Below, piece after piece: positions 781 to 54,145 of a DNA stretch of 64,000 nt. Position 1 is the stretch's first letter. Each line of letters starts with the position of its first letter. Under the pieces are notes generated by a model that worked only from the letters and a program-made list of their open reading frames with translations, did not search any database and was not told the DNA's origin. The stretch is from Sipunculus nudus (Eukaryota > Annelida > Sipuncula > Golfingiida > Sipunculidae). The stretch spans positions 48,363,676 through 48,427,675 of the forward strand of contig CM049311.1 of NCBI GenBank assembly GCA_026874595.1, written 5' to 3'. Position numbers and translations under genes: made by a program.

Positions 781-1216
781 AACAAGTGACCGAGGGGTCA
801 TGACAACAGATCTCTGAAATTGATTATTTCTATCAACTTAGATTGCTGTCATTTCAATATTTGTACAGTTGTGTCAGTGGCAATTATGAAGAATTTATCA
901 AAAGGATTTTCTCCAAATTTTCCATGGTGATAGATACATATGAGTAAATGATTGATGCATGTTCTTTCAAGAACACTACACGAGTCTGATTTTCTAATTT
1001 CTAGAAACACATGAAATGTAACTTGCAGAAATTAGATCACAGTGACCTAATTTTTGCCATGCGAGGAGCTTTACCAAGGACCTACCTAAATATTAATTAA
1101 GACATATCTAAGTCAAACCGTTATAATTTGTGCTTTTTTAACAGCTAGACAGCCAACAGAGGATGGACAAAGGTTGACGGCTATAGCTCAGATCACGTAT
1201 GGCCAGCTGAGATAAA
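781..1216 (+). mobile_element. Short copy of the CTCAGCTGA-ended repeat family (Helitron-like)
   Basis: The copy starts with AACAAGTGACC followed by GGGTCATGAC, and ends with GGCTATAGCTCAG, a spacer, then CAGCTGAG and a run of A. The same start recurs at 45868 and 50849, and related ends at 3813, 49610 and 53455, all in the same orientation. The ending can fold as a hairpin because CTCAG pairs with CTGAG. This copy is about 435 bp and lacks the long internal arrays of the other copies. The Helitron/Helentron assignment is an inference from the 3' hairpin and the lack of terminal inverted repeats. Confidence 0.55.
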
Positions 1217-1859
1217 AAAAAATCTAGACCACACCAGTTCTCAATATAAACCTGTTTTGATATTTGCCTCTGCCAGGATGGTATGCATACCTGTTTGTGT
1301 CTTGTGTGTTTGTATGTTTGTGTACAATCATGACAGAATCTCATGAAATTTTTTGAGGCATTTCAGGATTGGACCAATGAAGAATTCATAAAATTTTGGT
1401 GTGGATCAGGCACGTGATCCAGATTCAGGAATGTCATCGAGTCATAATCACAAATGAACAGTCACTTATGCATGACTAAATATCAGCTGAATTAGTGAAT
1501 GATGGAAGCTAAATGAATTCATTAGGATGCAGAATCCTACCTGACACATGAAAATGATGCTCTGTAATATGAAACAGGAAATTAAAGTCTGAACAGTCAA
1601 GTTTGAAATCAGCAGTCAGGAAACACTCCAACAGAACTTTCTTAATGAAAAATAATAAGATAAACCAATCTCACTAAGTCAACCTTATTCTGCTGCAAAA
1701 CTGGAGTCAAACAGTAAGGATCTACAGATCTGACAAAAACACATGTAAAAGAAACTAGAATGAGTTTATTTTTTCAAAGCAAATAGCTCTCGAGATCTCC
1801 TCCATATCTGCCCCCATACCAAAACTTGAGGAAAAATTAAAGTACTGCTTTAAAAGATA

Positions 1860-2462
1860 GGGTCACCGAAAAATTCTAGATTTCTGAAGATTTTACCTAA
1901 AAGATGAAGGTCAAGGTCATCAGTTTTCCATCTTTTTTTTAAAATTGGTTGAAACAACTTGTGTCTCAAATTTGAGGTAGGTTTATACAGGGCTTCAAAA
2001 ACTACTACATTCACAAGTAATTGTAGAAATGATAAGCAGTCTTTCCACTGATTTGATCATGAAGATCCAAGTCAAGGTAACCAGTGTCTGAACTCATCCT
2101 AGAACTTGATTGAAGAATATGTGTATCAAATTTGAGGGGAAATACGCCTTTCTTCAAAAGTTATGGGATTCTCAAAAAAATATATTTTCCACTTATCTGA
2201 CATTGAGGGTTGGGAAGGTCAAGGCCACTGGTATTCAAACTTGTCAGGAATAATTCAAATTTCATGAAAATAATACTGAAAGGTTCAAAAGTTATTGCGT
2301 TCACAAGAAATGACACAGACAACTTCGGATGCTGATGCTGACAAACCAAACAATATACATCTCTCGTCTCCACCAATGGGAGGAGACACATAAGAGGAAT
2401 AAACCTATCGATAAGACAACCATAACTGGGATGTTTGCATTCATGAGATAAAAAAAAATTCA
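1860..2462 (+). repeat. Diverged ~140-bp tandem repeat, family shared with 54146-54860
   Basis: Units repeat the phrases 'AAGGTCAAGGTCA', 'TTGGTTGAAACAA', 'TGTGTATCAAATTTGAGG' and 'CTTCAAAAGTTATGGG'. The same phrases in the same order form a longer array near 54.1-54.9 kb. The block ends in a run of A at 2452-2459. No protein is likely; the minus frame across it is a repeat frame. Confidence 0.6.
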
Positions 2463-3619
2463 CAATATATCAGAATTTTACACATGTTAACCTAGATAAG
2501 ACAAACATCGGGGTTTACTTGGACCAATATTCCCTTGATGAATGTTACATGGGTGAATTAAGCTGATCCTGATAACAATGTACCGGGTTCACCATGAACG
2601 CTTGGTCAACCATGGATTTCTGCTTCTGCTGAAATAGAGAGTGGCTGCTGACAGATATGTCATTCCATGCCAGATGACAGTCTCCTGTTCCCAATACTGA
2701 ACTCCTGTGAGGTCTCTCTGTGTAACAGATGTCTGCCAGATAAAGATATAATCCACTTGTGTCAGGCATTCTTGTCCAATAAAGCTGATCTAACCTGCCA
2801 GGGCCAGAACTGGAGCCAGAGCTTGTAAATTTATTATACAATACCTCCATGGCCCAAAAATCCCAACATTACAGCTCCATCTGTCTTTAAACATGTGTAG
2901 ATAAATTACGGTAAATTGCTTTCACTGCCTTCAGACAGCATTGAAGGATTAGAAGACAATGTACAATTACAGCTTTTATCTTTTTATGACGAGGTTTCAT
3001 CTAATGTTCACTATTTATAGGACTTAGCATTTTTTATTGTATTAAGACAAAATGTTTAATTAGCAGAAACCCAAAGCCTGGTGGCTGAATTTTCATAAGT
3101 ACAAAATAAACTGGTTTATCTGTGCACTGAATCACGTTATTAACTAGGTGGTCCTGGCCTACTGTTGAGAATTTATTTGTCAACCATCCACATTATGTAT
3201 GTCTATCTATAATCCTTATCCCAGTTTTGAGTCTAAATTATTTAATTTAGTGAATAACAAATAATAATAATGTGGCATAAATTACTATGAGATTCTCTTA
3301 ATAATTTAACCACACAGTGATGCATATGAGAGCTGGCTCATTTCTGTTTGCAGAAAAAATTCAAAATAACTCAACAGATCCACATTGCTGAGAAAATGCA
3401 TCTTCCAAGCTTCTATGCTGGCCTGTTCTATGGAGAAATTAGGTAAGTGCATCTCAATCATACATTATATTTTACAGTCAAACTGTCTTGAAAATGTAAA
3501 AAAAAATTCTTCATGAGACATTAAATATTAAAACAAAGAACCCATGCTAATATTATGTTCAAGAGATTTGAACACTCAAAAAAAAATTTCTTTAAATGTT
3601 CTAAAAATCATGCTTTCAC

Positions 3620-3813
3620 CATGTAGATCACAGAATATAGACAACTGTAACCTAATTTCAGGTTTGCATGGAGATTTCACTAAGACCTGTCAGGATATTT
3701 AGCAATAACATCCTGGGTCTAATGATTACAATATGTGCCCTATTAACGGATGGCTAGACAGACAGAGAGACCCACCACTAGCTCTGCAGAACGTACAGTC
3801 AGCTGAGCTAAAA
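3620..3813 (+). mobile_element. Truncated 3' end of the CTCAGCTGA-ended family
   Basis: The segment contains 'CCTAATTTCAGGTTTGCATG', 'ATTTGTGCCC'-like and 'TTAACGGATGG' phrases, a run of GACAGACAGA, and the ending CAGTCAGCTGAGCTAAAAAA. These match the 3' module of the large copy ending at 49610. No matching 5' start is seen upstream, so this looks like a 3' fragment. Confidence 0.55.
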
Positions 3814-5729: not shown

Positions 5730-6120
5730 CCTACAGGCATAATGCGAACCTGTGCAATGGTTTATATACCAGGTATAATGCTTCAATGCTGGGCCATTAC
5801 TTTTCAAGTAGGCCTACATGTCTTGTATACAACAAAGGTATTAGAGATACATATGCCCAATTTAAGGCTGATATATTAAATCCCTCCTGAGAAATAAGCA
5901 GGGACATACACTGTGCAAAAATTATTGTAGGTTGCGCCACCAGTCTTGTTTTTGATAAAGCTGTCTGATATGTATAAATATGCCCAATTTTAGGCTGATA
6001 TATCATGTTCCACCGTAGAAAAAGCAGGCACTTACACTGTGCAAAAGTCATTATAGGTGGCAACACCTGTCTTGTGAACAAGAAAGCCATCAAAGACACA
6101 TAGACAGGTCAAAATATCAG
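5730..6120 (+). repeat. ~128-bp tandem repeat, about three diverged copies
   Basis: The copies share 'CTGTGCAAAA', a 'GTTGCGCCACCAGTCTTG' phrase, 'ATGCCCAATTT' and 'AGGCTGATATAT'. The phrase 'TGTGCAAAAAT...GGTGGCGCCACCAG' reappears in the array at 46.2-47.0 kb, so the two are related modules. The open frames on both strands here arise from the repeat. Confidence 0.6.
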
Positions 6121-8935
6121 GCCAATTTCATGACTCATGTGACCTACCTGGTATATTTGCATAAAATTTGGTGATGATAGCTCAAGTCATTTCAGAAATT
6201 GCAATTTTAGTATGGTTTTTGGCCAAATGACTACGTTCAGCTTCCTGTAACTCTGCCAAAAAAAATCACTGAACTTGACCCATTCTATCAAACTTGAGAG
6301 ATATTGTTTTCTGGGATAATTTCTGGAAAATATTGGACAATTGGCTGAACAGTTTTAGAGAAGAAAATTTTTAAAGGTTTTTTAGATTTATCTCAATAAA
6401 ATCTAAGTCAACGAAGATAGCAAAAAAATAGGTTCAATCCGATAAAGTTTGACATGTGACTGATTCTTCCACAAGACTTGGCACTGCTTGCTCTAACAGT
6501 TTTTGTGATAACATAGATTAAAGTATGGCGTATTCATAAGCTCACAGGTTCGCTATAAAGCTCAAAAATATGTATACCAGCAAAAACAACACGGTGCCAG
6601 GTTTAAAATGATGTATACTTTATGGAGTCTATAATGGGTGTACAACTTTGGGACTGATTTTTTATACAGGGTTTTTTTTGGCCAACCCTGCTACCTTAAA
6701 GTAGACTTGTAATATGTCACTGAAAGTAACAAACTGTGCTAAACTTTAAAGATCACATTATAAATTTAAATGGTGCTCTTTAGAAAGGAGCAGTCCTATG
6801 TGTAAAATACAGTGAGGCCTACCTGGTACTTCATTAGTATTTCAGTACTGAGCACTAAGGGCACTCCTCAAGCATGCAAAAAGCCAGCACAAAAAGTCTA
6901 AATGAGCCATCAAAAATGCACTAACTTTGAAGCAGACTCGTTTAGTGTTGCAAATGCCTCATGTTTGCTGCAAAAGAAGCAGGGATAATGTTTCTTTTAT
7001 ACTCATTAAGTGCACAAATTGTATTTGGTGTGTGTGCTTGAGAGCTCTTTAAATCTGTAAGTGATCTTAAAGATTTATTGATAGTCCCGTAAGATGTAAT
7101 CCGGCTAAAGCTGGATCAACTTAAACAAAGTCACCACATTTCCCAATGGAAAGAACATCCTTACTGAAAGAACATAAAGTGTAGTTTAATATGACCTCCC
7201 ATTCAAAAGTAACAGATCCGTGATTTAATTTTAATATTGGTAACTGGGGCTTCCCCTGAATATTCCACCTTAAAAGGTGTAACAGTAGCATATTTATTTA
7301 AATATTTTGAGCAATGGTCCTCCCCCACTCCCTTCCTCCAAAAACAGATTTAGGATTTTGTTTGAGATGGATTAATCAGTAGCTTAAACATATCTGATTG
7401 CAAGACAACAGACTGAAGAAATATGGCTAATCTTGAAAGAAAGTGAAAAGAATTTAAATATCTTCAGAGGCCAATCTAGAATGCAAACTTAACAAGTGGC
7501 CCATGACCATGTTGCTTGGCAAAAGTTGAGAAAACAGGAAATGTCCAAATAGATAGGATAAATATTAGATATGTATGAATGTTTACAAAGTAATGTAAAT
7601 GGGTAAGAGAGAATTCTGAGAGCTGTTACTGGAAAATTTGAGATCTCCTTGAGGTGATTTCATTTTCACTTTGCATTTTAACAGGATGGCTGATGACATG
7701 TAAATGATAAAGACTGGTAAAATTTTAATTAATTACTGCAACATATGGACTGCTGGAAACTGCCAGTCTCAAAATACAATTAGAACTGTTAAACAAGGTC
7801 TTCCAACTCCTAAGAGAACTTTGATGAAACATGGTTAATCAAAGCATCAAGGAATCAATAATGAAAGATATGAAACGAGAGGAAGTAAGAAATCTTAGAT
7901 GAAAATAGGAAAATGAGACAGGAATCCAGAATGAAAGTAAGAAATCTAGGAAGTTTTAACGAAATATAGAGTGAAACCAGGATAAAAATCAAGAATATGA
8001 AAGAGAGAGATAACTGGACTTGGAAATAAATTCAAATAATACCTATAATCAAGAAAAAATACCAGAGAGAAACTGAGAAAGGTTGATTTGAAGCTGGTGC
8101 CCAGTTTTACTTGTGCCAAGAAGCTGATCGAGCCCACAGGTAAATAGCCTGATGGTTAGGGTTACATGTCAGGCCAATAAGCGGATGATCCCTTGTTAAT
8201 AAACAGGGAGGCCAGATGAGCAGGTCTGTGAGGAGAGGTTGAGTACACACCCACATGCCTGTGTATACACACAAAATACACAAGCTCAAGTAGCAGGCTT
8301 TCTCATCCTGTTCACTTATCCCCTCAGTCTTTGTCATGATAATCCACTTTAATCTCTCACCGATTTCTCATATCCTTGTTCTATTTGTTGAGCTCTTCAC
8401 TTAACCAATGAGATCTGTTATGTTCCAGTTACAAGTCTTTCACACACTGCATCCCTCATGCTGTTCAACACATGAAACAAGAGTAGATCAAACTGAAGCC
8501 AATTCCTGGCATGACCTGCCATAGTATTAGGGACTGGTTATTATAATATTATGACAGGGATTTGTCATAATCTGAAGTTCTTTCCTGTCATGTATTGTTT
8601 CATTATATATCAGTTACCATTACACTTTCTGTTATATTTTGTTACATTTTCATATAGAATATGATACATGGCCAGACAGATCACTATTATGTTCCCTTTT
8701 GGCCTGTCCTACTGAAAATTTTCTTTTCATATTCAATATAATATGAGGCTATTCAAACAAAAATAATAGACCCTGGTCAATCTATTTTTCTTTACAATCT
8801 TGCAGTTTTAAATAAATCATCATTAACAGATACTGAGCTTTACATAATGGCCAGATTCTGCAAGATTTATTGAGGATTCACAAGTATACAAAATATTTAA
8901 CAGTTTCTTCATGTATATGGGAATCCATTTCAGTT

Positions 8936-26743: not shown

Positions 26744-26758
26744 TTTTGTATAATTATG

Positions 26759-26930
26759 TACGGTCAGAAGCAGACTAATGTAGGGTCACTCAAAGAGTTA
26801 TATACGGTCAGAAGCAGAGTGATGTAGGGTCACTCAAAGAGTTATGTATGGTCAGAAGCAGAGTGATGTAGGGTCACTCAAAGAGTTATGTACGGTCAAA
26901 ACAGACTAATTGTAGGGTCACTCAAAGAGT
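26759..26930 (+). repeat. 44-bp minisatellite, forward block (4 units)
   Basis: Units of TACGGTCAGAAGCAGAGTGA, TGTAGGGTCACTCAAAGAGT and TATG begin at 26759, 26803, 26847 and 26891, the last being slightly shortened. The array then switches strand. Confidence 0.93.
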
Positions 26931-27424
26931 TCTCTGCTTCTGACCGTACATAACTCTTTGATTGACCCTACATCACTCTGCTTCTGACCGTACATAACTC
27001 TTTGAGTGACCCTTCAGTACTCTGCTTCTGACCGTACAACACTCTTTGAGTGACCCTACATCATTCTGCTTCTTACCGTACATAGCTCTTTGAGTGACCC
27101 TACATCACTCTGCTTCTGACCGTACATAACTCTTTGAGTGACCCTACATCATTCTGCTTCTTACCGTACATAACTCTTTGAGTGACCCTACATCACTCAG
27201 CATCTGACTGTACATAACTCTCTGAGTGACCCAACAGTACTCTTCTTCTGACCGTACATAACTCCTTGAGTGACCCTACATCACTCTGCTTCTGACCGTA
27301 CATAACTCTTTGAGTGACCCTACATAACACTTTGAGTGACCCTACATCACTCTGCTTCTAACCGTACATAACTCTTTGAGTGACTCTACATCACTCTGCT
27401 TCTGGCTGTACATAACTCTTTGAG
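26931..27424 (-). repeat. 44-bp minisatellite, inverted block (~11 units)
   Basis: This is the same unit in reverse complement: CTGCTTCTGACCGTACATAA, CTCTTTGAGTGACCCTACAT, CACT. Ten complete or near-complete copies and one partial are present; the ninth contains a partial internal duplication near 27315-27345. The forward and inverted blocks meet directly at 26930/26931, giving a large potential hairpin. Confidence 0.93.
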
Positions 27425-45690: not shown

Positions 45691-46194
45691 TTCAGAAATG
45701 TCAGCCCTTACCCATAAAATGAACCTTACAAATACCATGAATGTCTTGTTACTGGATAATTTACAACTTTCCCTGATTAATGTCCAAGAGTCTGAAACCA
45801 AGATTTAAGTCAAATGACAAAATATCATTATGCTGTTTAATAGCTTTATTAGGTATCCCAGTAATCAAACAAGTGACCCATGGGTCATGACGCTCAGCTG
45901 ACTTGGAAGAGATTCGCAAAAGGAAATTTTATCATCAGAATGGTAGTATATACCCATTCAACTGAAGCATCAAACAGATTAACCAACAGGCCAAGATTTA
46001 GTCTGTATTTATATATCTCAAAAATAGAGAAAAAATGTGTAAACTTTTAAAACTAGAATACGGGTAACCGACAAGTGACTACATGTATCCGCCAAATCAG
46101 AGGTGAATGGGTGAAGTGAGGCATTGATTGAGTGGCAAGGGGAAATAGAGTGAGGTATGTTGCATATTAGCATGGATGTCTGCAGCCTAAATGT

Positions 46195-47060
46195 GTATGT
46201 AGGTTGTGCCACCTACCACAAATCCAGAAAGCTGTCCAAGTTGTATACACCTGCAAAATTTTAGGCAGGAAAGTCAAACCACTACATGTATATGAGCAAT
46301 TTTTGCCCATGGCAGACAAACAGACAAACACTGTGCAAAAATCTTTGCAGGTGACCCCTCCAGTTTTGTGTATGATAAAGACCTATGTGAGATCTAAACA
46401 CATGCACAATTTTGGCCCAATCGGTCAAATGGTTCCTGAGATATGAGCTTGGATGTGTGTAGCGTTAACAAGAATGTAGGTGGCACCAACTGTCATAAAA
46501 TCAAGAAAGCTGTCCACGATGTATAAACCTGCAAAATTTTAGGCAGTTATGTCGAACCACTACAGAGAAATGAGTGATTTTAGGCCACGGCAGAATAACA
46601 GACAGACGCTGTGCAAAAATGGTTGCAGGTGGCGCCACCAGTTTTGCGTATGATAAAGAGCTATGTGAGATCTATACACATGCAAAATTTTTGTCCAATC
46701 GGTCAAACGGTTCCCGAGATATGAGTTTGGATGTCATCTGCGTGAATGTGAATGTAGGTGGCGCCCCCTGTCATAAAACCAAGAAAGCTATCCAGGATGT
46801 ATATGCATGACGAATTTCAGGTGAATTAGTCAATTCACTGCAGAGATATGAGTGATTTTAACCCAAGGCAGATGAACAGATGGACACTGTGCAAACATGG
46901 TTACAGGTGGCGCCACCATTTTTTGTGTATGTTATAAAGCAATCCAAGGGCTACATTTGTATCAATTTTATTTCCTGATCGGTCAAACGGGTCCCGAGAT
47001 ATGAGGGTTTATTAGTGGAAACAGGCCCACAAATGGACACTGGATAGAGAGGAAAGGTCA
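46195..47060 (+). repeat. ~285-bp tandem array (three diverged units) inside the element
   Basis: Units carry CTGTGCAAAAATGGTTGCAG, GTGGCGCCACCAGTTTTG, CCAATCGGTCAAACGGTTCC, CGAGATATGAG and AAGAAAGCTNTCCANGATGT. The array is related to the smaller array at 5730-6120. Confidence 0.75.
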
Positions 47061-47239
47061 GAGGTCAACGCAAATTGGTTAGGCACCAGTTCAAATGTGA
47101 CCCGACAATTGGTGTGAGTTTCAGAAAAATCAGTCCATTAGTTTCCGAGGAGCTCTATGGAAACAGACGCCGCGGCGGCGGAGGAACTCGGTCAAAAACA
47201 TAGTATCCGCAAAACTTCGTTTTGTCTGTACAAAAATAC

Positions 47240-49480
47240 AGGTGGCTCCACCAGTCTGCAGAAACTAATAAAAACACTTAATGGTCAATATCCATGCAAA
47301 GAATCATGGTGATCTCTGCATTAGTTGTACAGATACTTCAGCTTTTGTATCAAATTGTCCATTATTCTGAGGGATACTTCAGAGTCCTATAGCTTGAAGG
47401 ATATGGGTAACAGAGACCTAATTTCAAGTTTCCACAGGCACTTTTCATGGGCCTTCTTGCATGACAAGAATGAAGATTCTAGGTCCAGTTGTTGCGATTT
47501 GCACCCTGTTGACAGATAACCACATCTTTAAAGGTCTCAAAAAAAAGAAAAAAATTCGTAAAAATTTGAAAAAAAATAGAGGTGGCACACCCAGTCTGCA
47601 GAAACTGATGGAACAGCTCATGATCAATATGTATGCAGAAAATCATGACCATCAGTGTTGTAGTTATTGAGATACTGCAGTTTTTGGTATCAAATTTTCC
47701 ATTATTCTGGGGGGGGGGGGTATTTTGGAGCCATACAGCTTAAAGAATATGGGTAACAGAGACCTAATTTCAGGTTTCCATGGAGACTTTTCATGTGTCT
47801 CCCTGTGTGTCAAGAATGAAGATTCTTGGTCCAGTTTTTATGATTTGTGCCCTGTTAACAGATGTTCATATCTTTAAAGGTCTCAAAAATAGAGAAAAAT
47901 TTCGTAAAAAACCCGAACAAATACAGGTGGTGCCACCAGTCTGCAGAAACTTATGAAACACTCCATGATCAATATCCATGCAAACAATTATGGTTATCTC
48001 TGCATTAGTTGTTCAGATACTTTAGCTTTTGTATCAAATTTTCCATTATTCTGAGCTGTACTTTGGAGTGCCATAGCTCAAAGGATATGGGTAACAGAGA
48101 CCAAATTTCAGGTTTCCATGGAGACTTATCATGGGTCTCCCTGTGTGTCAAGAATGAAGATTCTAGGTCCAGTCATTACCATTTGTACCCTGTTGACAGA
48201 TAACTACATCCTTAAAAGGTCTCAAAAATGGAGAAAACAATTCGTAAACATTGAAAAATACAGGTGGCACCACCAGTCTGCAGAAACTGATGAAACATCT
48301 CATGATCAATATGTATGCCGAAAATCATGACCATACGTGATGCAGTTAATGAGATATTGAAGTTTTTGTATGAATTTTTTACTATTCTGGGGGGTAATTT
48401 GGGGCCCCATAGCTCAAAGATATGGGTAACAGACACCTAATTTCTGGTTTCCATAGAGACTTTTCATAGGTCTCTCAGTGTGTCGAAAATGAAGATTCTA
48501 GGTCCAGTAATTAAGATTTGTGCCACGCTAATAGATGACAGCATCCTCAAAGGTCTCAAAAATAGAGGAAAAAATTGTAAAAAATCAAACAATACAGGTG
48601 GCGCCACCAGTCTGCAGGAACTGATCGAACATCTCATGATCAATATGTATGCCAAAAATCTTGACCATCAGTGAGGTAGTTATTGAGATATTGAAGTTTT
48701 TGTATGACATTTTTGACTATTCTGGGGGGTACTTTGGGGCCCCATAGCTCAAAGATATGGGTAACAGACACCTAATTTCTGGTTTCCATAGAGACTTTTC
48801 ATAGGTCTCTCAGTGTGTCGAAAATGAAGATTCTAGGTCCAGTAATTAAGATTTGTGCCACGCTAATAGATGACAGCATCCTCAAAGGTCTCAAAAATAG
48901 AGGAAAAAATTGTAAAAAATCAAACAATACAGGTGGCACCACCAGTCTGCAGGAACTGATCGAACATCTCATGATCAATATGTATGCCAAAAATCTTGAC
49001 CATCAGTGAGGTAGTTATTGAGATATTGAAGTTTTTGTATGAAATTTTTGACTATTCTGGGGGGTACTTTGGGGCCCCATAGCTCAAAGATATGGGTAAC
49101 AGACACCTAATTTCTGGTTTCCATAGAGACTTTTCATAGGTCTCTCAGTGTGTCGAAAATGAAGATTCTAGGTCCAGTAATTAAGATTTGTGCCACGCTA
49201 ATAGATGACAGCATCCTCAAAGGTCTCAAAAATAGAGAAAAAAATTCGTAAAAAATCGTAAAATACAGGTGGCACCACCAGTCTGCAGGAAGTGATGTAA
49301 CATCTCATGATCAATATGTATGCCAAAAATCATGACCATCAGTCAAGTAGTTAATGAGATATTGAAGTTTTTGTATGAAATTTTTTACTTTTCTGGGGGG
49401 TACTTTGGGGCCACATAGCTCGAAGGATATGGGTAACAGAGACCTAATTTCTGGTTTCCAAGGAGATTTTTTATGGACCT
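47240..49480 (+). repeat. 335-bp tandem array (seven units)
   Basis: AGGTGGC(G/A)CCACCAGTCTGC recurs at about 47240, 47579, 47922, 48260, 48596, 48931 and 49267. Spacing is exactly 335 bp among the last three, which are nearly identical, while earlier units are more diverged. Frames of 63-64 codons appearing twice (48464-48655 and 48799-48990, 335 bp apart) are the same repeat frame. Confidence 0.93.
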
Positions 49481-50519
49481 CTCAGAATCCCAAGTTACAA
49501 GGTTCTAGGTCCAGCGGTTAGGATTTGTGCCTGGTTAACGGACAGACGGACAGACAGACGGACAAAGAGTGATCGCTATAGCTCAGATGACTTTCAGTCA
49601 GCTGAGCTAATAATGAATATTGGTATCAGGATTAATGTGTCTAGTAATACCAGTTTAAAAAAGAAATCTACTTTATCCCATGAGTACATGAAATGTGAGA
49701 AATGTGCACTTTGGCACATACAAATAGAACGAGAAATTTGACACAATTAATTACCAAAGGTAGAATTCATAAAAATCATAAAAAGGTAACCAAGAATATA
49801 CACAAACAAAGTCAGGTGAGGAGAGACTCCAGACAAACATGCCTTGTAAACTAGAGGTGGACACCCAATAACTTGAAAAATTCATAAAAATTAAAATATC
49901 ATTTAGGTGTGACCAAAACCTAATCAGGTCAGGAGACCCATTAAATAAACCAGATTTAACCGAGTTTAGCTGGGGACAGCCCTGGATAGTAGGACCTCAC
50001 TGGCAATAACTGATAGGAAAAGTCCAACTGGGAAATTTTCTTTCATCAAACTTGAAAAAAGAAAGAAAGTCTGTCAGAAAAATGTCAAAGCAATAAAAGG
50101 GGAGATGAAGGAAAATTCTTATTAGCATGAGGGAAGAGAAGTGTCAGCCTCTGATGCCATGTTCAGCCTCCCTGCCTGCCAATAAGACCTGACCTGTAAC
50201 CTTCAGGGAATATGACTGGTGCTTGTACACATCAGGCTGGTAACAGGCTGCTGTGACTGACTGACAGTAGCCTCCACAGCTACATCGCATCAGGGAATAG
50301 GACAAGTACCGATAAAACTGAAGGCCAGGAAGCTCCAACACAGCATGTACTCAAACTTTAGAAGTCTGACATCAGGGACTGGACTGGGCAGGTTACATTT
50401 AGGGATTTCTCTGGCTATGTACTGTCCTGAAATACAGATCAACTATAATGGTGTAAGAAGAGCTCAGATCAAAGCCAGAAATCTCTGGCATCGGAGATAC
50501 CAAAGTATCCCCAGACTGG

Positions 50520-50848
50520 ACATACCCCTCTCCAAAATAGGTTCCCTTCTTCTGAAGTTTGTTAATGACACTTTACAAGACCAAGGCCACCAAGGTCAAG
50601 TTCACACATTTTTAAAAAGTTATGTATCAAATTTGAAGAAACAAGCAAATTCCTGTAATTAATGTCCCCCACTGTGGGATCTTGTTTTTTTTCATGCTTG
50701 ATAAAGGATGGACAGACAGAGTGACAGACAGACAGACAGAAGCAAGACACTCCAAAACAAATCCCAACCAGGGTAAGCATGAGAGCAGTCACTGACCAAA
50801 ATTTGAATGAAATTGAATAACATTTAGGTAGGTTATCCCAAAGAAACA
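50520..50848 (+). repeat. Left part of a ~140-bp array, split by an insertion
   Basis: GACAGACAGACAGAAGCAAG, CCAAAACAAATCCCAACCAG, AGCATGAGAGCAGTCACTGA and CAAAATTTGAATGAAATTGA form one unit that stops at AAGAAACAA (about 50849). The next unit resumes at 53455 with AACCTGACA. The upstream part (50540-50690) contains the AAGGTCAAGTTCACA and TATCAAATTTGAAG phrases of the neighbouring family and a CCCCCACTGTGGGATC hairpin. Confidence 0.75.
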
Positions 50849-53455
50849 ACAAGGGACCTATGGGTCACGACGCTCAGCTGTTATATATGATAAAAAAATA
50901 TTATTTAGAAATGAGGCACATGCTGGTTTTGTGTGGTAATAAATATAAGCTGTATTATGAGTTGTTGTTTAGCTTATGTATGATTTTGATAGTACCTTTG
51001 GAGACAGGGAAGAGGATTGATTTCATTTATTTTATTAACAAATGGAGTACTGTCACACAGATTTTACTTGGCCATATAACGTATAAGCAGAACATATAAT
51101 ATAAGAGTTTAACTATTTATTAAAAAAATTACAAATATTGTCCCAAATATAATTTTTATTAAAAATAAGAGAATCATATGATTTTTTAAAATGAAATATA
51201 ACTGATATGATTATTAAAATAATATTAAAGAATATATTCATGAATGCATTCATGAATACATTTTGAAGTATTTGCACGAGTATTCATATACTTTCATTTT
51301 TACCTGAATTCCCATTCTTTATGCAAGAAATTTTATAATAGAGTACATAATCATATTCGTATTCAAATACAATTACAAAGTATTCGCACCATGTCTGGTA
51401 TTTATTCAGTTTTCACCAAACAATGATGTTGAGAATCCAGAATATACAAATTTCACACATTTAAATTATGATCATAAGTACCTGGTTTTATGGCTTTTAT
51501 TTATATTAAAAAATAACTGTAAAAAATTCATTTTGGACTAATTTCACATCAATGTACACACTAGACACAGTAGGAATCTAGATTAATATTATCAACTGCA
51601 TCTTTGTCTATCATTAATTTCCTTCATATAATCCTTAATGATTAGTAATGAATAATATGATTTACTTCTTAATCATTAAAAATGAACTGAAAAATGCCAT
51701 GGTGACTGCATGGTGTTATTTGGAATATGTGACATTCTACCCATCGATACAAGATTCTTATATCAATAGTAACTGCAAGTTAATTTCCTGTTATTATAAA
51801 CTAACAAATTCCTTTTCTATTTTTCTTTAATTTGTTATTAAAAACCAATAAAAATTATTAATTTATTGTTTATTGTTATGTTGTTGGTTAAAACTACTAG
51901 ATGAGTTGGGTTGAACACCTGGATCAACTGTGGCTGGCCATAAGCTGCCTGGATTCTCCCCTCAAGCGTGCATAATTTGATGAAAGGTCAACAAGGTCAA
52001 CATACAGGTGACTCAAGAGGGGCTGGAGGGAGCCAAAGTCTGACAGGGTCTCATAAAAAAAATTAATAAAAGCTACAATATTTGGCAAATTTCTTTCAGC
52101 TTTCTAAACTAAAAAGCTGAAATCTTTATGTATGCATGATATGAAAATTATATCAACAGTGCTCACAGGAAACAAACGTGCCTTGGTCACAGTTGGGCAA
52201 AATTTAAGGTACTAATTTTATATTTATACTAATAACTTATAAAATTTGAAAAATTCAGAACTAATTTTGGGTATTCAATTGAATCTTGATTAAATAATGT
52301 TACATCCCTGACAAGAAAAATCTCTAGCTTCAGCAATGCCCTTGTTAAGGGAGTAAATATATTTCTTGATTTTTTAGAAAGTGCATTATGTTTGGGCCCA
52401 TAACTTAAAAAAAATACACAATACTGACATCATTTCTGGCATGTGCATAGTGAATGAATAGAAAAATATGTATATTATATATGATCAAAGTCAGATCAGT
52501 GGTTTTGATATTAGGCAGTCTTAAAGTATAACATTGGGTTTATAATGGAAAAATGAAGTTTTTCATTGATATCTCGAAGGAATTAAGTCCTAGTGACCAA
52601 ATTCTTGGCATGGTAGGGGATTTTGGAGAAATCTAACTGTATGCCAAATTTAAAGAACTTAGAGCTGAAGCTTGGGAGCTGAGATCTAGCAAACTGCATA
52701 ACACTAGCAATATGTGACATGGTGCTTGAAAACTTGAATAAAATCTACAGTTTTTGATCAACTGGTTTCAAATTTTTGGTGTTAACAGTTGAAATGCTAA
52801 CAAAAACATGCTGTGAAAATTAAATCCACAGCAGTTACAGCAAAAAAACATGCCATGGTCAAAGTTGGGCAAAATTTAAGGTACCAATTTTTTATTTTTG
52901 CTAATATTTTTAAAAATTTAAAAGATTTTGATCTAATTTTGGGTATACAATTTAATTTTGATTAATAAAAGTAATATTACTGGAAAAAAGTGCTTAGCTT
53001 TAACAAGTTTTGTGTTTAATGATAAAATTTCTTTCCTGATTATTTACAAAATGCATTATGTTTGGGCCCATAAATTTTTTAAAATAAATAATACAGACCT
53101 AATTTCTGGCATGTACATAGGAATTATATAGAGGATTATTTATAGGAAATATGAGGAAAAACAGATGAGTGGTTTTGATATTAGGCAGTCCTAAAGTGTG
53201 AAAATAGGTTTTTAATAAAAAATTGAGGTTTTTCCTTAATTTCTCAAAGGAATGAAGTCGCAAAGACCCAGTTTTCGGCTTGGTAGGAGATCTTGGGGAC
53301 ATCTAACATTATGCTGAATTTTGGATTCCTAGGTCTTACGGTTTCAAAACGTGCCACATCTACGGACGGACGGACGGACGGACGGACAGACGGACGGACG
53401 ACGGACAATGGACCACGACTATAGCTCAGATGACTTATAGTCAGCTAAGCTAAAA
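50849..53455 (+). mobile_element. Nested 2.6-kb copy of the CTCAGCTGA-ended family
   Basis: It starts ACAAGGGACCTATGGGTCAC then GACGCTCAGCTG. It ends ACGACTATAGCTCAGATGAC then TTATAGTCAGCTAAGCTAA. The interior is unlike the 45.9-kb copy: two ~670-bp direct repeats (about 52170-52720 and 52845-53340) sharing GTCANAGTTGGGCAAAATTT, GCATTATGTTTGGGCCCATA and TTTTGATATTAGGCAGTC, then a (GGAC)n stretch near 53366-53400. No transposase frame is present. Flanks join cleanly into one array unit, so this is a bona fide insertion. Confidence 0.75.
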
Positions 53456-54145
53456 ACCTGACAAACTAACAGAGTGACAGACAGACCGACAGACATAAGC
53501 CAGACACTTCAAAACAAATCCAAACCAAGGTAAGCATGAGAGAAATCAGTGACCAAAATTTGAATGACATCAGATAATATTTAGGAAAGTTATAGCAGGG
53601 AAACAAAAACATGACAGACGGACAGACATAGTGACAGACAGACAGAGAAAAGCCAGACACTCCAAAACTAATCCCAACCAAGGTATGCATGAGAGCAATG
53701 TCTGACCAAAATTTGAATGAAATCAAACAATATTGAGGAAAGTTATCGCAAGGAAACCAAAACCTGCCAGACAGACAAAGTGACAGACAGAAGCCAGACA
53801 CTCGAAAACAAATCCCAACCAAGGTATGCAAAAGAGCAATCACTGCCCAAATTTGAATGAAATCGGATAATATTTAGGAAAGTTATGGCACCGAAACGAA
53901 AACCTGACAGAGAGACGGACAAAGTGACAGACAGACAGACAGAAGCCAGACACTCCAAAACCAATCCCAACCAAGGTATGCATGATAGCAATCACTGACC
54001 CAAATTTGGATGAAATCCAATAAAATGTAGGAAAGTTTTCGCACGGAAACGAAACCTGATGGACGGACAGCTAGACAGACGGACAGACAGACAAACCCAA
54101 AACAATGTCACCCGCATCCGCGGAGCGGAGGACAAAAAAAATGTA
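53456..54145 (+). repeat. Right part of the ~140-bp array with 3' hairpin end
   Basis: About five units repeat GACAGACAGAAGCCAGACAC, TCCAAAACAAATCCCAACCA, AGGTATGCATGAGAGCAATC and GATAATATTTAGGAAAGTTA. The end ATCCGCGGAGCGGAGGACAA with a following A run (54115-54141) resembles the hairpin tail of another Pearl/Helentron-like family. Minus-strand frames 53466-53843 and 53743-53991 are repeat frames. Confidence 0.8.

Follow-up and report, generated by a model that had tools for sequence, protein, structure and literature searches.

The stretch of DNA analysed here, referred to as the window, comprises 64,000 nucleotides of the Sipunculus nudus genome (C6:48363676-48427675 of a 1.43 Gb assembly) and contains four related repeats, all of them on the same strand: two long copies, A and B, a short copy, S, and a fragment (Table 1). 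A first-pass annotation, made from the letters of the window alone, had located the three copies and the fragment to within a few bases, and had suggested ends of a rolling-circle type that mobilise arbitrary tandem cargo. We hold it very probable that these repeats are non-autonomous Helentrons (HINEs) lying on the minus strand, a joint judgement that covers the HINE class, a mover from a Helentron family, the mechanism proposed below, and the origin of copy A by loss of a coding part. The copies form a new family of an already known kind of element, with a matching Helentron in the same genome.

Table 1. Putative HINE copies of the window, their parts, and the tandem array interrupted by copy B. 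subTIR, subterminal inverted repeat.
Feature	Position	Strand	Remarks
Copy S, short HINE without arrays	781-1217	-	Hairpin decayed, 3' subTIR lost
Fragment of a HINE	3620-3812	-	5'-end module is its sole part
Copy A, complete HINE	45868-49612	-	AACAAG...GCTAA at 45868-49610, followed by a variable A run in most relatives
A, 3' end	45868-45902	-	subTIR GTCAGCTGAGC at 45892-45902, palindrome TGACCCATGGGTCA at 45874-45887, CTTGTT terminus
A, ~278-bp tandem array	46220-46931	-	Related array upstream of the partner's Rep gene
A, 335-bp tandem array	47232-49485	-	Related array just inside the partner Helentron's 5' end
A, (GTCY)n short microsatellite near 5' end	49540-49563	-	Likewise described for HINEs (PMC7492417)
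A, 5' end, hairpin	49579-49609	-	subTIR AGCTCAGCTGACT and complementary AGTCATCTGAGCT
Left portion of 152-bp-unit host array	50700-50847	.	Split by B; units supply the empty site
Copy B, complete HINE	50848-53455	-	Within the 152-bp-unit array
B, 3' end, CCCTTGTT variant	50848-50880	-	33 bp, 94% identical to the end that follows a Rep gene at C7:71189229
B, direct repeat, two copies	52142-53321	-	52142-52651 versus 52814-53321, 76.5% identical, spacing ~672 bp
B, 5' end, hairpin	53418-53453	-	
Right portion of 152-bp-unit host array	53456-54095	.	Split by B

The ends of the copies are well defined within the window. The start common to S, A and B, described by the pattern ACAAGTGACC-N3-GGGTCATGAC, is found at 781, 45868 and 50848 with 0, 0 and 2 mismatches, respectively, and the only further places encountered at up to five mismatches have 4 and 5. 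At the opposite side, a hairpin end built on CTCAG/CTGAG occupies 1180-1215 in S, 49575-49610 in A and 53418-53453 in B, with a remnant at 3797-3810 in the fragment. Folded as single-stranded DNA, the hairpin of A beats 200 of 200 shuffles on the plus strand and 199 of 200 on the minus strand, and that of B beats 199 of 200 on the minus strand; the hairpin of S is decayed (139 of 200 shuffles fold as well). The sequence complementary to the hairpin arm that had been reported for both long copies, GCTCAGCTG, is indeed present in A and B, and absent in S. Thus, the shared start, the hairpin and its complementary sequence were all recovered as first described, but their polarity has to be reversed. 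Since the Rep gene of the matching Helentron, introduced below, reads from the hairpin end to the palindrome end, what had been called a 3' hairpin is the 5' subTIR with its complementary repeat, and what had been called the start, AACAAG...GGGTCA, is the 3' end. The fragment is real, and its module is that of the 5' end.

Read on the minus strand, copy A consists of TT, AGCTCAGCTGACT, a loop, AGTCATCTGAGCT, the GTCY microsatellite, the arrays, GTCAGCTGAGC, the palindrome and CTTGTT, an arrangement that agrees with published accounts of HINEs (PMC4067079 and PMC7492417), including the complementary repeat and the short GTCY microsatellite at the 5' end. The subTIR, of at least 11 bp, is identical at both ends of A (GTCAGCTGAGC / GCTCAGCTGAC) and of three Helentrons, and it is imperfect at both ends of B. 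More than 100 bp adjoining the hairpin end are common to S, A and the fragment (65-73% identity), and the last 335-bp unit of A continues into this module; B matches A significantly over only ~75 bp beside the hairpin end, the remainder being drawn from a multiple alignment. A single end module gave no match among phage records, nor did the hairpin among viral contigs.

The same two ends recur throughout the genome. Exact matches number 20,936 for the 5'-hairpin pattern and 3,910 for the palindrome-end (3') pattern, and 0 for reversed control patterns; positions were listed for the first 100 places of each pattern. In a sample of 67 hairpin ends of one variant (C1:0-25.7 Mb), 17 are accompanied by an exact palindrome end that shares their strand and lies on the correct side, at 0.8-4.4 kb; on the wrong side none occurs up to a distance of 12 kb, and for 2 of the 67 an opposite-strand one is present within 20 kb. 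The first 533 bp of A gave 40 scored matches of at least 97% identity, its own included, among 2,979 first-look candidates, and the first 553 bp of B gave 40 long matches of at least 96%, its own included, among 852 candidates, 40 of them scored. We fetched 20 relatives of A (L009-L028), mostly the best-scoring ones together with one tandem pair, a sample that is therefore biased to young copies. These relatives diverge by 0-2.6% from their majority over 350 bp, have both ends on one strand in 19 of the 20 cases, and carry the subTIR exactly in 18 of 20 at the 3' end and in 17 of 19 at the 5' end, the others having one mismatch. The lengths of 13 simple copies (7 complex loci were left out) fall at 3,036-3,100, 3,410-3,431 and 3,774 bp, in steps of about one 335-bp unit, as expected from gain or loss of whole units. 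At the one fetched locus without both ends (L027, C6:59597500-59606400), which has nested copies, a 4377-bp segment occurs twice in tandem, the two being 99.7% identical; the segment comprises an A-type copy and a B-type end, with another B 284 bp further on, and the hairpin end was not in view there.

An autonomous-type partner with the same ends was also found. A search of the genome with the Rep domain PF14214 gave 143 matches, and 11 regions downstream of such genes were chosen for inspection. The 3' end is exact in three of these (C17, C5 and C9), present with one mismatch in one (C7, where it resembles the variant of B), degenerate in one (C13) and lacking in six, among them a second Helentron family that has an endonuclease domain. 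All three regions with an exact 3' end also carry the 5' end upstream, and homology among the three copies starts and stops at the two termini, delimiting Helentrons of 14,887, 16,130 and 16,278 bp in which the Rep gene runs from the hairpin end towards the palindrome end. The C17 copy has Rep (PF14214) and helicase (PF05970) domains, and Exo_endo_phos_2 scored above cut-off in two of four tail segments, namely, those of C9, an exact-end copy, and of the C13 relative, and below it in C5 and C7. The complete set of Rep, helicase and endonuclease is thus found at the level of the family, with the first two from C17 and the third from C9 and C13. These domains, together with the two shared ends, bear out the rolling-circle assignment, specifically to the Helentrons, and answer the call of the first-pass annotation for a Rep-helicase partner with the same hairpin.

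Two observations on Helentrons of this genome are worth recording. First, the 5' parts of the C17, C9 and C5 Helentrons (L045, L046 and L047, respectively) contain an additional 5' end, located internally at 0.7-1.1 kb from the outer one; repeated internal 5' ends have been proposed to cause loss of the 3' terminator (PMC8268682). Second, the second Helentron family encodes, at C11:50377500-50387499 (L029), OTU, Rep, Pif1 helicase and Exo_endo_phos domains in a single long frame, and the ends studied here are absent from the 10 kb fetched.

The direction of the Rep gene also bears on a different class assignment. A canonical Helitron begins with TC at its 5' end, has a hairpin before CTRR at its 3' end, and inserts between A and T. 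On the plus strand the copies would present a hairpin and then GCTAA, as all 19 fetched relatives with that end do, and CTAA resembles CTRR. However, the Rep gene runs the opposite way, towards CTTGTT, which refutes this orientation of the element; in the Rep direction the 5' end is TT and the 3' end CTTGTT. Moreover, a TC 5' end is absent, the other terminus being AACAAG, and members of the family have an endonuclease domain, so that a canonical plus-strand Helitron has next to no chance of being the correct reading.

The partner is equally informative about what the copies carry between their ends. That the interiors differ holds as first noted, with ~278-bp and 335-bp arrays in A, a ~672-bp-spaced repeat in B and no internal array in S, and a shuffle-controlled comparison of interiors gave no significant similarity between the 335-bp unit of A and the ~672-bp unit of B, which makes the arrays of A and B different sequences. 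These differences, together with oyster HINEs in which related ends are paired with unrelated arrays, as described in PMC7492417, would suit ends that take up arbitrary host tandem arrays and mobilise them as cargo. Against this, counterparts of both arrays of A sit inside the Helentron itself. In the Helentrons a 335-type array follows the 5' end, matching positions 3-2381 of element A, and the Rep gene is preceded by a ~278-type array, matching positions 2380-3565; the matches have 67-88% identity, with the same strand in some segments and the inverted strand in others. The >100-bp module shared by S, A and the fragment, and its continuity with the last 335-bp unit of A, likewise speak against arbitrary uptake, which we consider improbable. 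Since its arrays resemble those in the non-coding 5' part of the partner, A looks like a deletion derivative that lost the coding part and kept both arrays, which is the simplest reading of the sequences; the proposal of arbitrary cargo fails for A. Through these elements satellite-like arrays become dispersed over a genome of 1.43 Gb, and related arrays in a Helentron's own non-coding 5' region make captured cargo versus inherited array a testable matter.

Returning to the HINE interpretation, we searched for the sites into which the copies had inserted. From 25 elements, 30 flank pairs were joined, and an empty site was convincing for 9, weak or artefactual for 3, and lacking for 18. The convincing sites, all paralogous, are those of L010, L011, L012, the second element of L013, L019, L020, the nested B of L024, L025 and copy B of the window, and their best matches are 72-92% identical to the flanks. 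The target is a run of A on the plus strand, that is, of T on the element strand, and none of the nine sites has a clear target duplication beyond an ambiguous AA. Insertion into TT or T-rich sequence without target-site duplication (TSD), as in Helentrons and HINEs, is therefore seen in 9 of the 30 flank pairs, the 2-bp AA being indistinguishable from element sequence; AAA follows GCTAA in 17 of 19 relatives, and this A run may in part be element sequence.

A foldback or terminal inverted repeat (TIR, transposase-type) transposon with internal satellite arrays, whose TIR and TSD features had been named at the outset as grounds for abandoning a rolling-circle class, would account for the short inverted repeats near both ends. 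We rejected it as extremely unlikely: the nine empty sites are without clear target duplication, the inverted repeats are asymmetric, lying ~2 nt from one end and 24 nt from the other, and Rep-helicase genes are flanked by matching ends.

Junctions between elements provide a further line of evidence. We found 48 exact head-to-tail junctions and 0 head-to-head junctions, in agreement with rolling-circle replication, although insertion into the T run at another element's 5' end also yields a head-to-tail junction. In 16 of the 48 a single TT is common to both termini, and two junctions lie 2,032 bp apart, as expected of three units in a row. Chance expectations of 0.26 and 0.69 junctions, calculated from counts of longer end patterns, are lower bounds, because the junction patterns use shorter end cores.

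A mechanism can be proposed on this basis. The mover is likely a Helentron family of 14.9-16.3 kb with the same ends, encoding Rep, Pif1-type helicase and endonuclease-like domains, and acting on elements with the order 5' TT, subTIR and complementary repeat, (GTCY)n, tandem arrays, 3' subTIR, palindrome and CTTGTT 3'. Rep would nick the TT 5' end, the helicase would peel off one strand, and replication would stop once the 3' subTIR and palindrome are reached; the single strand, or a circle made from it, would then enter a T run without target duplication. Copy A would have arisen when the coding part was lost from such a Helentron and two arrays were kept, after which array length would shift by whole units. 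The sequences show directly the ends and their pairing, the partner, the related arrays, the empty sites and the head-to-tail junctions, whereas the strand-transfer steps, and the role of this partner in moving the window copies today, are inferred.

Several results weigh against this interpretation. First, for 50 of the 67 hairpin ends the 5 kb on the correct side contain no exact palindrome end, for which the strict 3' pattern may account partly. Second, an empty site was lacking or unconvincing for 21 of the 30 joined flank pairs, several of the sites match the flanks at no more than 72-80% identity, and the initial AA may represent a 2-bp duplication rather than element sequence. Third, the 3' palindrome folds no better than shuffles as single-stranded DNA. 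Fourth, the Rep frame has 2342 aa in C17, 1124 aa in C5 and 571 aa in C9. Last, A and the partner fall short of a subfamily rule that demands at least 80% identity across the 60 bp at the 3' terminus: the match, 97% identical to the three Helentrons, is confined to the final 35 bp, and the ~145 bp before these are mostly unaccounted for. Therefore A and the partner belong to the same family, by their subTIR, and to different subfamilies, and this short match, together with the identity of the arrays, means that the located Helentron may be a cousin of the actual mover.

The elements resemble several published ones. The Cg_HINE elements of the Pacific oyster (Vojvoda Zeljko 2020, PMC7492417) are described as having, like those reported here, a 5' subTIR with a complementary repeat, a GTCY-type microsatellite, central satellite-like arrays of one or two kinds in a row, a 3' subTIR with a palindrome, and T-rich insertion without TSD. 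They differ in their consensus monomers, of 138-181 bp versus units of 335, ~278 and ~672 bp here, and in that, according to that account, they could not be related to an autonomous element, whereas in the present genome we located a Helentron whose ends match and whose arrays are related. Helentrons, HINEs and DINE-1 of mite, Culex and Drosophila, as treated by Thomas 2014 (PMC4067079), share a 5' subTIR 2-4 nt in, a 3' palindrome, the TT target, a variable number of terminal T's and an origin as deletion derivatives of Rep-helicase-endonuclease elements. From the 3' end, however, the subTIR and palindrome TGACCCATGGGTCA lie at 24 and 6 nt here and at 38-60 and 8-35 nt in the mite families, and the 35-bp 3' match of A and its partner contrasts with the >95% identity given for Culex pairs. 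Helitron2, from the same source, has asymmetric terminal inverted repeats and palindromes at both ends, as here, but is without an endonuclease domain, which members of the partner family carry.

The shared strand of the window copies is matched on a larger scale, as neighbouring elements are mostly co-oriented within ~20 kb. The first 100 listed 5' ends (C1 0.1-3.2 Mb) comprise 85 on the minus and 15 on the plus strand and form 11 runs versus 26.5 expected, with 0 of 20,000 shuffles as low, or 4 of 20,000 after thinning to >5 kb; genome totals of 5' ends by strand are near balance (10,304 and 10,632). The first 100 listed 3' ends, over 25.7 Mb, form 33 runs versus 50.7 expected (14 of 50,000 shuffles), and 31 versus 40.2 (1,171 of 50,000) when thinned to >50 kb. 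A sparser set, 100 5' ends of a single variant spread over 41 Mb, gave no overall signal (47 runs versus 49.7). At 5-20 kb orientation agrees in 9 of 10 3'-3' pairs, 9 of 10 variant 5'-5' pairs and 15 of 16 3'-5' pairs, 9 of these last 15 being in an order possible from one long element; at 20-50 kb the figures are 12 of 17, 5 of 11 and 12 of 16, and beyond 100 kb agreement is about half. These counts are not independent, as the lists overlap in C1. No opposite-strand end at up to two mismatches was seen in the 20 fetched loci. At C1:96416-1146475, a stretch of 1.05 Mb, the minus strand carries 54 of the 55 exact 5' hairpin ends, which could be a strand-biased domain, for example of a replication or piRNA type.

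This co-orientation might stem from insertion into one specific strand, from the direction of genes, from nesting of copies within oriented arrays, or from several of these together. Asymmetry of A runs in the elements, about 2:1, is too weak to be the full cause (A:T runs of at least 5 number 29:14 in copy A, 22:14 in copy B and 182:162 elsewhere in the window), and segmental duplication was discarded for C1:0.1-1.1 Mb, where six sampled 0.7-kb flanks share nothing mutually; four of the six are HINE-like in the same orientation, and could also be internal 5' ends of one element. As a possible sign of the direction of replication or transcription, base skew of the flanks was measured: AT skew is 0.033 and 0.022 (standard errors 0.013 and 0.011) and GC skew 0.020 and 0.030 (0.021 and 0.016), in flanks that may contain other HINEs. 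Short interspersed elements of tRNA type, sought as an orientation control, were not found in the window. It is tempting to speculate, as a rather unlikely option, that Helentrons choose a strand by inserting into single-stranded DNA on one strand, at lagging-strand gaps or R-loops, in which case orientation would record the local direction of replication or transcription and the elements would be a eukaryotic counterpart of IS200/IS605. In the small part of the literature surveyed, which included PMC5371812 and PMC5738225, bacterial single-strand transposons are described as oriented by replication and barley Helitrons as having an asymmetric target, and we found no report of Helentron co-orientation; oyster HINEs are described as occurring in both orientations (PMC7492417). 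Given some 21,000 exact 5' ends, distributed over both strands, one can ask from the way neighbouring copies point whether eukaryotic rolling-circle elements insert strand-specifically.

Other repeats of the window deserve mention. The 152-bp-unit array at 53456-54140 ends in a GC-rich near-palindrome, CCGCATCCGCGGAGCGGAGG, and the array interrupted by B may itself be a HINE of another family. At 5847-6450 there is a 126-bp tandem array related to the ~278-bp unit of A, and the stretch next to it is repeated in L013, L025 and L023, so that this is perhaps a further element family; non-HINE repeats common to the window and the fetched loci amount to one candidate stretch only. Finally, two arrays of 44-bp units face each other as inverted repeats at 26754-27424.

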